Of a stretch of DNA of 32,444 bases, positions 20,338 to 32,444 are shown one piece after another. The notes beneath the pieces were generated by a model. It was not told where the DNA came from and did no database searches. It worked only from the letters and a program-made list of their open reading frames with translations. How positions within the stretch are numbered: position 1 is the stretch's first letter; each line of letters begins with the position of its first letter. The translations under genes were made by a program, and so were the position numbers. This stretch comes from Candidatus Saccharibacteria bacterium CG_4_10_14_0_2_um_filter_52_9 (GTDB lineage Bacteria > Patescibacteriota > Saccharimonadia > Saccharimonadales > UBA4665), in NCBI GenBank assembly GCA_002792275.1, contig PFOA01000081.1, forward strand, positions 1 to 32,444. The letters run 5' to 3'.

Positions 20338-21345
20338 TTACAATAACCACGGCAGCTGCCTGGCTTGTTTGTAAGACAGGTGCATGGCTCGGTAACTACT
20401 AGCATTCCGGCTATTAATAGATTTATTGATTTTACGTGACATGGTTTTATCAATCACCGGCAGTTGCCTCGGATAAAGGTTATGCCCCAAGAAGTGCACA
20501 CCGTGCCGGGCTCGAATAATTACATCGTTCTTTTTATGAACTTTCAGAGAAAGTTTGTTAGACAACCACAGCGTCGCAATTTGCCTAGCCACTATGGCCG
20601 CCGGGCGATCCCGGAAGAACAGTACAAAATCGTCGCCATAGCGCACATAGGCCAGCGGTTTCAAAATGTGGCGGGCATAGCGGTCGAATTCGTTCAGATA
20701 GATGTTGGCGAAAATCTGGCTGGTCAAATTACCAATCGGGATACCCTGACTGACTGACTGACTGACTGACTGACTGACTGACTGACTGACTGACTGACTG
20801 ACTGACTGACTGACTGCATTTTCATAGCTGTCAATCACCTTGTCAAGCAAGTCCCGAGCCGGTGGATCTGAAACGATACGCTGCAAGCAACTCTTCAATA
20901 CCTGGTGATCAATGTGATCGAAAAACTTAGACACATCAGCCCGCCACAGCCACGCGCCGGAGTAATCAGTCATCAACCTACTAGTCCGTCGCAAAGCGGC
21001 GTGCAGACCCTTGCCTGGTCGGCAAGACCAGACATCAAAATCCAGACGCGGATCAACCAGCGGCACTAGGTAGTCATACATTAAGCGATGCACCACGCGA
21101 TCACGCACATTGGCGACGGCTATATCCCGACGCTTCTTTTCGCTGACAATTTTGTGATCATATGAGCCGTGCCGGTACTGTCCGTTATTTAGATCAGCAC
21201 ACAGCCGCAATAAATTAGTTTCCAGCTCACTTTCAAAAGCCATAACTGCCCGGCTGGGTTGCTTGCCGCGCCGAAAAGCCCGCCAAGATCGCCAAAGGTT
21301 TGTTAGACTAAGGTCTATGGAAGAACTGCCGGTCATCGCTGTCAT
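20338..21345 (-). CDS. Diversity-generating retroelement reverse transcriptase
   Basis: LWRSWRAFRRGKQ, RPGKGLHAALRR, WRADVSKFFDHIDHQVL, GIPIGNLTSQIFANIYLNEFDRYAR (DGR-type SQ in motif 4), YVRYGDDFVLF, HFLGHNLYP; adjacent TR/VR pair confirms the class. Confidence 0.93.
   Translation of the reverse strand: MTAMTGSSSIDLSLTNLWRSWRAFRRGKQPSRAVMAFESELETNLLRLCADLNNGQYRHGSYDHKIVSEKKRRDIAVANVRDRVVHRLMYDYLVPLVDPRLDFDVWSCRPGKGLHAALRRTSRLMTDYSGAWLWRADVSKFFDHIDHQVLKSCLQRIVSDPPARDLLDKVIDSYENAVSQSVSQSVSQSVSQSVSQSVSQGIPIGNLTSQIFANIYLNEFDRYARHILKPLAYVRYGDDFVLFFRDRPAAIVARQIATLWLSNKLSLKVHKKNDVIIRARHGVHFLGHNLYPRQLPVIDKTMSRKINKSINSRNASSYRAMHLSYKQARQLPWLL
20746..20816. repeat. Tetranucleotide microsatellite (CTGA)17.75 within the RT ORF
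   Basis: 71 bp uninterrupted CTGA on +; encodes (VSQS)5VSQ on the minus strand. Confidence 0.98.
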
Positions 21346-21655
21346 TTATGAAGTTTATAAGAAATTGGTTGAGCTGAACACGGTAATTGATAAAAAGTAT
21401 CGGCACACGCTCGGCGAACCGGTTATTGTAGGTTGTGCCGAAGTATTGAAACAACTTGTCTTGGCCAAGCATGCGCCCAAACCGCTGAAGGCCAGCTATC
21501 TCATCCAGGCTGATGCCGAGGCCGAGCTAACGGCCATGAAATTGCGTGCCATTTTAGAGTTACACCTAGCTAACGAAACCAATGTTTTAAAAATACAGGC
21601 TCGCTTAAGCGAAGCTCGCCGGATGATCGGCGGCTGGCGCAAAAGCGTGCCTTAA
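21317..21655 (+). CDS. avd: Avd-like DGR accessory protein (four-helix bundle)
   Basis: MEELPVIAVIYEVYKKLVELNTVIDKKYRHTLGEPVIVGCAEVLKQLVLA...LSEARRMIGGWRKS; helical protein next to a DGR RT and TR; TAGACT 7 nt upstream of ATG. Confidence 0.85.
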   Translation: MEELPVIAVIYEVYKKLVELNTVIDKKYRHTLGEPVIVGCAEVLKQLVLAKHAPKPLKASYLIQADAEAELTAMKLRAILELHLANETNVLKIQARLSEARRMIGGWRKSVP

Positions 21656-21676: not shown

Positions 21677-21786
21677 CACCGCGAGGCGACCGTTGTTGTC
21701 ATTCTCGGCATTCGAGTTGTTCAAGTTCGGCTGGCCATCGTTGTTGACGATAGAGTTCGGGACGCCAGACCAGCCCCCGAACCGCT
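21677..21786 (-). repeat. DGR template repeat (TR1), 110 bp
   Basis: Matches 22052-22163 except at adenines; coding-sense AAC-rich: RFGGWSGVPNSIVNNDGQPNLNNSNAENDNNGRLAV. Confidence 0.95.
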
Positions 21787-22045: not shown

Positions 22046-22941
22046 TTACCCCACCGCGAGGCGACCGTCGCTGCCAACCTCGGCAACCGAGTCGTTCAAG
22101 CGCGGCCGGCCATCGTAGAGGCGACGACAGAGTCCGGGACGCCAGACCAGCCCCCGAACCGCTTGGCGTCTAGATTGAAGTGACGGATATAGGTTTTGTA
22201 AAAGGCTTCGCTATCGCTCAAAGTATCGCCCGATGCCCGCAAAGTCTGCCAGTAGGTAACGGCTTCGAGTACACTTGGTACTTTCAGGCTTGGGTTAGCT
22301 TTTTGCATTTCCGCCAGTTTTGCCTGCTGTTTTACTACGGTGCCGGTCAGCGCTTCGTCAAACTTGCTTGGGATTAAGCTGAACATGACGTCATTCCCAT
22401 TTGACGGGTCAGTGCCGGCCAGTTCTTGGGGGCTATATTTCTTATACAGATTCTCATAAACAGAGGTTTCATATGGCTGTTGCTCACCAAAAGTTTTGGC
22501 CAGACGCTCTACTTCGCCTTTCTCAAGCTCTACATTGGGAGTAGCCACGAGCGTAAAACGCAACTCCGGATCGGCCTCCATAGCTGCTTGCACATAGGCT
22601 ACCTTTTCATCGGTCAGCCAGGTCTCAAATTCAATAGTGATTTCTGTCTCAGAGCCTATACTGACGCGGTCTTTAGTTTTGCGTCCGTCATCAAGTTTTT
22701 GAGTAAGCGTGTCGTAAGCAAGGTAGGCCGTATTCAGCTGGCCGTAGAGGCTTTCGCGAACCTCGTCTAACGTTTCTGGGTGTGTGGTGGCTTCAACTGC
22801 CACGGCAGCGGCCGCAAGCGGCAGCTCTAAACCCCGCACTTGAGCAGCTTCAGCGATTTCTTGAGCCGCACTAATTAGCCACTCATCTGATTGCTCTGCC
22901 GGATTGACTTGTACCGATATACCGTTGCCTTTAAGTTCCAC
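22046..22941 (-). pseudogene. DGR target (variable) protein gene, currently frameshifted inside the VR; the ORF as read terminates at 22096
   Basis: GTG start with SD AAGGAG; C-terminal YIRHFNLDAKRFGGWSGVPDSVVA leads into the VR. With a CT duplication removed the frame continues as YDGRPRLNDSVAEVGSDGRLAVG* ending at 22046. Confidence 0.8.
22052..22163 (-). repeat. DGR variable repeat (VR1), 112 bp
   Basis: Pairs with TR1; 16 substitutions, all at TR adenines, plus a 2-bp insertion. Confidence 0.95.
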
Positions 22942-30959: not shown

Positions 30960-31580
30960 TCAGATATCTTCGAGGATTCGCAAAAGTTCGGCCGGCGTGT
31001 CAGCCAGCGCTGTTGGATTAGCTTCTTTGAGATTTTTGCGATTGGCGAAACCCCAAGTAACCGCGACTGCGCGCAAGCCGATAGACTGAGCGGCTTCGAC
31101 ATCACGAAGTTCATCGCCTACATAAACGGCATGCTCAACGTTCAACTGATGATCTTTCAGAAGCTGCCGGAGTGCCGGAGCTTTACCAAACATACCGGCA
31201 CCACCATAAACTTCCAGAAAATATTTGTGGATTTTTTCCTGATGTAGAAACCGCCGTACGTTGCGCAAAGAATTGGTGCTAAGCACGAATAACTCATGGC
31301 CTTCGGCATGCAATTTGCGAATTAGTTGTGGCATGCCATCGAACGAATCCAGATCTTTAATCGCCTGCTGCATGCGTCGCCGACCCTTGAAAAATACGGC
31401 AATCGCCTGCCACCAATGAAAACCCAGCCGGCGGGTCATGGCTGCCATCGATAAGCCGCGCAAAGCTTGTCGAGCCTCCTCGCTAAGCGGCGCTACGCCG
31501 GCTTCTTCGGCCATAAAGTCGGCCACGTAATCAAAACTATCGGCTATGGTGCCGTCAAAATCAAAAATAATCGCTGCCAT
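30960..31580 (-). CDS. HAD-superfamily hydrolase (phosphoglycolate phosphatase-like)
   Basis: MAAIIFDFDGTIADSFDYV, ELFVLSTNSLRNV, VYVGDELRDVEAAQSIGLRAVAVTWGF; TAATG overlap with msrA stop. Confidence 0.88.
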   Translation of the reverse strand: MAAIIFDFDGTIADSFDYVADFMAEEAGVAPLSEEARQALRGLSMAAMTRRLGFHWWQAIAVFFKGRRRMQQAIKDLDSFDGMPQLIRKLHAEGHELFVLSTNSLRNVRRFLHQEKIHKYFLEVYGGAGMFGKAPALRQLLKDHQLNVEHAVYVGDELRDVEAAQSIGLRAVAVTWGFANRKNLKEANPTALADTPAELLRILEDI

Positions 31581-32059
31581 TACACGGCCTCGTAAGGAAT
31601 GTGGCACATGCCCCGCCCTGTGCGTTCGGCAAATTTCTGGTGGTAGTCTTCGGCCGGATAAAAAGTAGTGGCCTTGGTAATTTCGGTCACGATCGGCTCC
31701 TTAAAGTTCGACTGGGCTTTGGTTTTACCAGCTTCGGCGGTGGCTTTTTGCTCATCATTTAGGTAGAAAATAGCCGTCCGATAGCTGTCGCCGACATCGG
31801 GGCCTTGGCGATTCAACTGTGTGGGGTCGTGCATCCGGAAAAAATGCATCAAAAGTGTTTCGTAATCGACCTTCTCAGGCTCAAATTCCAGCTCGACAGC
31901 TTCGGCGTGGCCGGTGGTATGGGTGCAGACTTCTTCGTAAGATGGATCCACGGTATGACCGCCGGTGTAGCCGACAGTGGTCTTCGTTACACCTGGTACT
32001 TGATCAAAATAATACTGCACGCCCCAGAAACAACCGGCTGCAAATATTGCCCTGTTCAT
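31580..32059 (-). CDS. msrA: Peptide methionine sulfoxide reductase MsrA
   Basis: AIFAAGCFWGVQYYFDQVPGVTKTTVGYTGGHTVDPSYEEVCTHTTGHAEAVELEF; start at MNRAIFAAG, 6 nt after TATAAT. Confidence 0.92.
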   Translation of the reverse strand: MNRAIFAAGCFWGVQYYFDQVPGVTKTTVGYTGGHTVDPSYEEVCTHTTGHAEAVELEFEPEKVDYETLLMHFFRMHDPTQLNRQGPDVGDSYRTAIFYLNDEQKATAEAGKTKAQSNFKEPIVTEITKATTFYPAEDYHQKFAERTGRGMCHIPYEAV

Positions 32060-32063
32060 TACC

Positions 32064-32185
32064 AAATTATACACCGCTACGGGACGGAAGCGCAGATTCC
32101 GGTTGTCGTTGTCACGGTTGTTCCAGTTCGCGTTGACCTGGCCGTTGTTGACGTTGGCAATCCGAGCGTTGTCGCGCTCCGCCCT
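32064..32185 (-). repeat. Second DGR template-repeat-like sequence (TR2), boundaries approximate
   Basis: Minus strand reads DNARIANVNNGQVNANWNNRDNDNRNLRFRPVAV, with 10 AAC and 1 AAT codons in about 26; lies outside any recognisable gene, upstream of msrA. Confidence 0.65.
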
Positions 32186-32191
32186 TCCCTC

Positions 32192-32417
32192 GGCCAGGTT
32201 CCCTGGCCACCGTCTGAGCATGGTCGATCGGGGCTCGATTGTTTCAGCGCAAAGACTGCGCTCACTCGCCGAGGATTCCAGTGGTGATTGTTAAGTGTTG
32301 TCGATCGCCGTGAGTCGTGCCGGCTCAGGCATAGCCTGCCAGCAGATCACATCTTGGCGATTGAGACCAGGGTGAGCCGCCCTTTGCCGCACAGGCAAAT
32401 GGCATGATTCGCTCACC
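32192..32417 (-). ncRNA. Structured region preceding TR2 (several hairpins)
   Basis: GGCCAGG-GAA-CCTGGCC (32192-32208); AGCGCA-N5-TGCGCT (32246-32262); ATCGCC/GGCGAT closing helix (32304-32361) around a GCTGG-CAGGC-TAT-GCCTG-AG-CCGGC hairpin; GGTGAGC/GCTCACC (32371-32417) around TTTGCC-TGTGC-GGCAAA. Confidence 0.45.
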
Positions 32418-32444
32418 AAAGAAAAATATACTACAAGATTCAAA

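Follow-up and report, generated by a model that had tools for sequence, protein, structure and literature searches.

The window, i.e., the whole stretch of DNA under study (32,444 nt), corresponds to one complete contig (C59) of a genome assembly of 784 kb in 92 contigs, with an estimated completeness of 99.8%. It contains a DGR (DGR1) composed of an RT gene, an avd gene, a template repeat (TR1) and a variable repeat (VR1), as well as a second template repeat (TR2), located beside the msrA gene near the right edge (Table 1). The AlphaFold2 model of the RT of DGR1 has a mean pLDDT of 89.5. The product of its avd gene matches an Avd PHROG (E 5.1e-12) and, below the respective cut-offs, the bAvd family PF22296 (E 2.2e-7, curated cut-off) and NF033474 (E 4.9e-10). 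The two extra nucleotides of VR1 relative to TR1 shift the frame and shorten the DGR1 target ORF; the shift may be genuine, or the consensus may be wrong in this hypervariable stretch.

Table 1. Features of the window, with positions counted from its first nucleotide.
Feature	Position	Strand	Basis or remark
RT1, RT of DGR1, 335 aa	20338..21345	-	PF00078 E 1.1e-17; phrog_1423 E 8.5e-82
(TCAG)17 repeat inside RT1, just before GIPIGNLTSQ	20746..20813	-	
avd of DGR1	21317..21655	+	head-to-head with RT1
TR1 of DGR1, unrelated to TR2	21677..21786	-	
VR1 of DGR1	22052..22163	-	2-nt insertion relative to TR1
msrA, host gene downstream of TR2, not part of a DGR	31580..32059	-	PF01625 E 3.5e-63
TR2, template repeat of DGR2	32072..32182	-	111-bp ungapped match to VR2 at C37:32-142
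Presumed TR2 transcript leader/spacer, non-coding, predicted structured	32183..32444 (contig end)	-	fold and spacer position
T-rich motif TTTTTCTTT	32418..32426	-	spacer comparison

The template repeat beside msrA and its variable repeat

The first-pass annotation, made from the sequence of the window, proposed a DGR template at 32064-32185. The minus-strand reading on which it relied, DNARIANVNNGQVNANWNNRDNDNRNLRFRPVAV, is confirmed, with AAY codons at 11 of 26 positions, while the proposed interval encloses the homology-defined repeat but extends too far by 8 bp on the msrA side and by 3 bp on the other. The annotation had further reported no variable repeat for this template inside the window, which is correct, and had suggested searching the rest of the genome for a near-match differing at adenines and located at the 3′ end of an ORF. 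Such a partner exists. A whole-genome search with the TR2 stretch returns one strong second match (E 6e-18, 77%), at positions 32-142 of contig C37, where it forms the final coding stretch of a 303-aa ORF. The alignment runs from window position 32182 to 32072 over 111 bp, without gaps and with 26 mismatches. Adenines of TR2 make up 29 of the 111 positions and account for 21 of the mismatches (hypergeometric P 7.7e-12), which bears out the claim of a DGR template; in the reverse direction, adenines of the C37 copy account for a single mismatch (P 0.92). Because the mismatches are concentrated at the adenines of the window copy and not at those of the C37 copy, the former is identified as the template and the latter as its variable repeat (VR2). 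From TR2 to VR2, adenine changes to G at 15 positions, to C at three and to T at three, and five further changes affect other bases. The 3′ ends of the two repeats (putative IMH/IMH* region) are identical except for a T-to-C and a C-to-T change at core positions 103 and 106.

Apart from VR2, the whole-genome search yields only weak matches of 15-30 bp as other possible variable repeats of TR2, and none of 93 further family genomes yielded a TR2 homologue. TR2 is also unrelated to TR1, as had been noted: a whole-genome search with TR1 matches only TR1 and VR1, which excludes TR1 as the source of VR2. Searches of Pfam, PHROGs, NCBIfam and the PDB returned no informative family or relative for the DGR target proteins, and no such match points to a C-type-lectin fold of the VR domain. 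By itself, TR2 is a new example of an already known type of element.

The probable remainder of DGR2 at the end of another contig

The annotation had considered two origins for this repeat: either the RT 11 kb away uses it in trans as an orphan template, or it belongs to a further DGR past the right edge of the window, where another RT or avd was to be sought. The second proposal is supported by the left end of C37, where VR2 and its target gene are found together with an RT and the remnant of an avd gene. The RT piece (RT2, C37:918-1343) lies on the same strand just upstream of the VR2 ORF, contains the motifs IGNLTSQIFANIYL and YVRYGDDF, and matches RT1, with an aligned identity of 49-61% over what remains. 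The avd piece (avd2, C37:1444-1731) precedes RT2 on the opposite strand and covers only HMM positions 43-108. RT2 lacks its first ~143 residues and avd2 its first ~42, and the truncated 5′ ends are fused to each other.

The relative position of the two contigs can be inferred from synteny. In a congener, a single contig carries proS-greA-lysK, a decarboxylase, a 122-aa peptidase, a membrane protein, a 96-aa ORF, msrA, HAD and serS. In the source genome, C37 holds the part from proS to the membrane protein, the window contig holds the part from msrA to serS, and DGR2 lies at the joint; nucleotide homology to the congener ends at C37:1753 and at window position 32061. With the contigs abutting, the starts of VR2 and TR2 would be 404 nt apart, and the corresponding spacing in Saccharibacteria relatives is 350 (G075/L045), 345 (L046) and 412 nt (G027). 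These relatives share the order RT, VR, TR. A T-rich run follows the variable repeat by ~37-45 nt in the same three relatives and in DGR1, and would follow VR2 by ~49 nt. Since both the spacing and the position of the T-rich run would be close to those of the relatives, the gap between C37 and the window is probably close to zero. Altogether, these comparisons indicate, on sequence grounds and without any joining read or long read, that C37 adjoins the window contig, with the break located between VR2 and TR2. As C37 carries the rest of DGR2 and, on this evidence, adjoins the window, the second proposal of the annotation is correct.

The presumed TR2 leader occupies the place of the VR-TR spacers of the three relatives and of DGR1. 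Its predicted fold (32183-32420) has an energy of -93.3 kcal/mol, with a z of -2.5 against shuffled sequences, compared to a weaker z of -1.2 for the DGR1 leader. Beyond the T-rich run, its similarity to the other leaders stays at the level of shuffled sequences, and a search of Rfam returned a sole match, mir-631, at chance level. Elsewhere in the genome, C57:2601-2905 (L015) holds what is left of a third DGR-type RT. By eye, the sequence that follows it resembles the C-terminal end of an Avd, and no full gene is present.

Taken together, the repeat at 32072-32182 is very probably the template repeat of DGR2, a second and chromosomal DGR split by the assembly, in a lineage where translation of RT and Avd is most likely switched by repeats. 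On one strand, DGR2 would read RT, target gene ending in VR2, structured leader of ~260 nt, TR2 and msrA, with avd on the opposite strand before RT. In the active state, an error-prone RT-Avd complex would copy the TR2 RNA and misread its adenines, a copying step inferred here. The resulting cDNA would then replace VR2 and so rewrite the 303-aa target at its C-terminus, although homing is likewise inferred.

Present state of DGR2 and competing explanations

Both RTs carry a tetranucleotide repeat. In RT1, (TCAG)17 sits between KVIDSYENA and GIPIGNLTSQ, with 87 nt between these anchors (0 mod 3), and the gene is in frame. In the AlphaFold2 model, the repeat forms a low-confidence loop (66-68; approximately residues 176-199) between well-predicted parts, which suggests that different in-frame lengths could be tolerated. 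In RT2, (TCAG)23 places 115 nt between the anchors (1 mod 3), and the gene is out of frame. Translation of DGR RT and Avd in this lineage is most likely switched by simple-sequence repeats, of which these two would represent an in-frame and an out-of-frame state.

DGR2 itself looks like a silenced, decaying DGR, its present inactivity being inferred. When pairs are trimmed by one common rule, three non-adenine differences between TR2 and VR2 remain, and no more than 3 of 57 comparable pairs reach at least three; such an unusual number suggests that TR2 and VR2 may be a relic pair. The deletion of the 5′ parts of RT2 and avd2 is seen in the assembly and could be an assembly error; if it is real, phase variation of RT2 is a moot point.

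It is conceivable, if unlikely, that DGR2 is intact in the cell and that assembly errors, arising from (TCAG)n and a mixed population, account for both the lost 5′ ends and the repeat frame. Assembly is difficult in repeats and hypervariable regions, the contigs did break at VR2/TR2, and VR1 contains an odd 2-nt insertion as well. However, the missing 5′ parts are found nowhere else in an assembly estimated to be 99.8% complete, the repeat is just 92 bp long, and the non-adenine mismatches fit disuse.

Use in trans by RT1 and its Avd, which would keep TR2 and VR2 alive, appears improbable. It would matter only because the RT and avd of DGR2 itself are now truncated, and it draws some support from an RT1 that is intact and in frame, from the similarity of RT1 to the rest of RT2 given above, and from the VR2 ORF, which is still open. 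On the other hand, the TR1 and TR2 leaders have no common sequence beyond the T-rich run, and regular copying should have erased the five non-adenine differences between TR2 and VR2. The orphan-template proposal is therefore not excluded, but it is unnecessary to explain the sequence.

That the stretch encodes the N-terminal part of MsrA, or is a chance Asn-rich ORF rather than a template, can be dismissed: the TR2 frame is indeed open into msrA (ORF 31580-32221), which corrects the annotation on one point, yet the congener MsrA has its start codon at the same place, at a conserved Met and without any N-terminal extension, which together with the adenine-specific VR2 match rules out direct coding. 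Because this frame is free of stops, a gene caller could take TR2 for a part of MsrA, and automatic annotation may add a false N-terminal extension of 54 residues (31580-32221).

Simple repeats in avd and RT genes across Patescibacteria

A general pattern emerged from a survey of the best 80 DGR-type RT loci, chosen by similarity from 85,462 genomes and nearly all from Patescibacteria, with 14 phage DGR loci (80 kb) from INPHARED, including Bordetella phage BIP-1, serving as control. A frameshift-capable simple repeat is present in avd or RT in 44 of these best 80 loci, while none was found anywhere in the phage loci (0 of 14, 80 kb, BIP-1 included). An avd gene was detected in 74 of the 80, on the strand opposite RT in 66. 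Among these 74, 34 have a frameshift-capable repeat, made of C9-12, CA, GA/CT or 5-mer units, 3-63 nt before the Avd core. Repeats are 46 times as dense there as in the rest of these loci (34 in 13.3 kb versus 24 in 435 kb). None of the 34 repeat-bearing loci has an ATG between the repeat and the core. In 33 of them an ATG precedes the repeat; it shares the avd frame in 7 and lies in a different frame in the other 26. An in-frame avd ATG is thus available in 7 of 34 loci with the repeat versus 38 of 38 loci without it (P 1.1e-13). These repeats of the avd 5′-coding part (L058-L122, e.g., L081:2929-2939, L075:2893-2932 and L079:2926-2945) mostly leave avd out of frame. In 24 of the 34 loci, the avd repeat does not interrupt the RT frame of the other strand either; one tract might therefore shift both genes.

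Repeats within RT recur at the site of the RT1 repeat, as an out-of-frame (CAAG)8 in the relative G027 and, in frame, as G13 in L046 (Saccharibacteria) and (GA)7 in L057 (Peribacteria). Another RT loop carries (AC)13 in L055 and (GA)11 in L062. The RTs of G075 and G008 have no repeat, the former being 100% identical to an RT in record PKXF01000011.1 (Saccharibacteria MAG). That the repeat unit differs by lineage while the site is kept suggests selection for instability itself. Tetranucleotide repeats (TGGA, GGAT, ATAG) also occur soon after RT in L063:3985-4016, L092:4048-4091 and L087:4060-4091, which have no avd repeat. Two contigs start within G25 (L089:1-25) or (AG)10 (L117:1-20) just upstream of RT, as if assemblies break there.

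About half of the sampled Patescibacteria DGRs therefore have repeats placed where on/off switching of the mutator could occur. It appears likely that DGRs of this phylum are widely phase-variable, a hypermutable repeat in the 5′ part of avd or in an RT loop acting as the switch, so that only a minority of cells would have an active mutator; if so, targets would be diversified in bursts. The loci come from MAGs, the Patescibacteria and phage sets differ in sequencing source, and the closest pair of loci, at 72% identity, is too distant to show a change in repeat length directly.

In the DGR of Bordetella phage BPP-1 (mtd/avd/TR/RT), adenine mutagenesis directed by a template acts on a 3′ terminal variable repeat, with Avd as partner. 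DGR2 would share these traits but differs by its chromosomal location, its order RT, VR, TR and an avd placed head-to-head on the other strand; unlike in Patescibacteria, simple repeats are absent from the locus of the BPP-1-related phage BIP-1. The contingency loci of Neisseria, Haemophilus and Campylobacter carry a non-triplet simple-sequence repeat in the 5′ coding part, leaving genes in or out of frame. The repeats of avd and RT resemble these, whereas the product switched would be a mutagenesis machine (Avd/RT) rather than a surface structure or a methylase, and no variability of the tract within a clone has been shown for them.

Patescibacteria DGRs have been assigned to clade 2 of cellular DGRs (Roux et al. 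2021, PMC8144416). Without any placement in a tree, DGR2 is like these in its DGR RT, its Avd (here a remnant), its adenine-specific TR/VR pair, its chromosomal location and a target without recognisable domain, and unlike them in being split by the assembly, with RT and avd truncated. The main text of that study makes no mention of simple repeats in RT or avd, nor of homopolymers, slippage or frameshifts. More generally, no report of a repeat-controlled DGR RT or Avd was found in the open-access literature searched, subscription papers lying mostly outside the search. Repeat-switched RT and Avd would constitute a new form of a known type of element, and phase-variable DGRs are the best reading of the data.

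Amino-acid turnover was found to be lower in cellular DGR clades, including that of Patescibacteria, than in viral clades, and it was left undetermined whether the cause is that RT activity is more strongly controlled or that selection is stronger (Roux et al. 2021, PMC8144416). The repeats of avd and RT provide a concrete and countable candidate for such control. If this proves true, one mutation mechanism, slippage, would gate another, the targeted mutagenesis of adenines.
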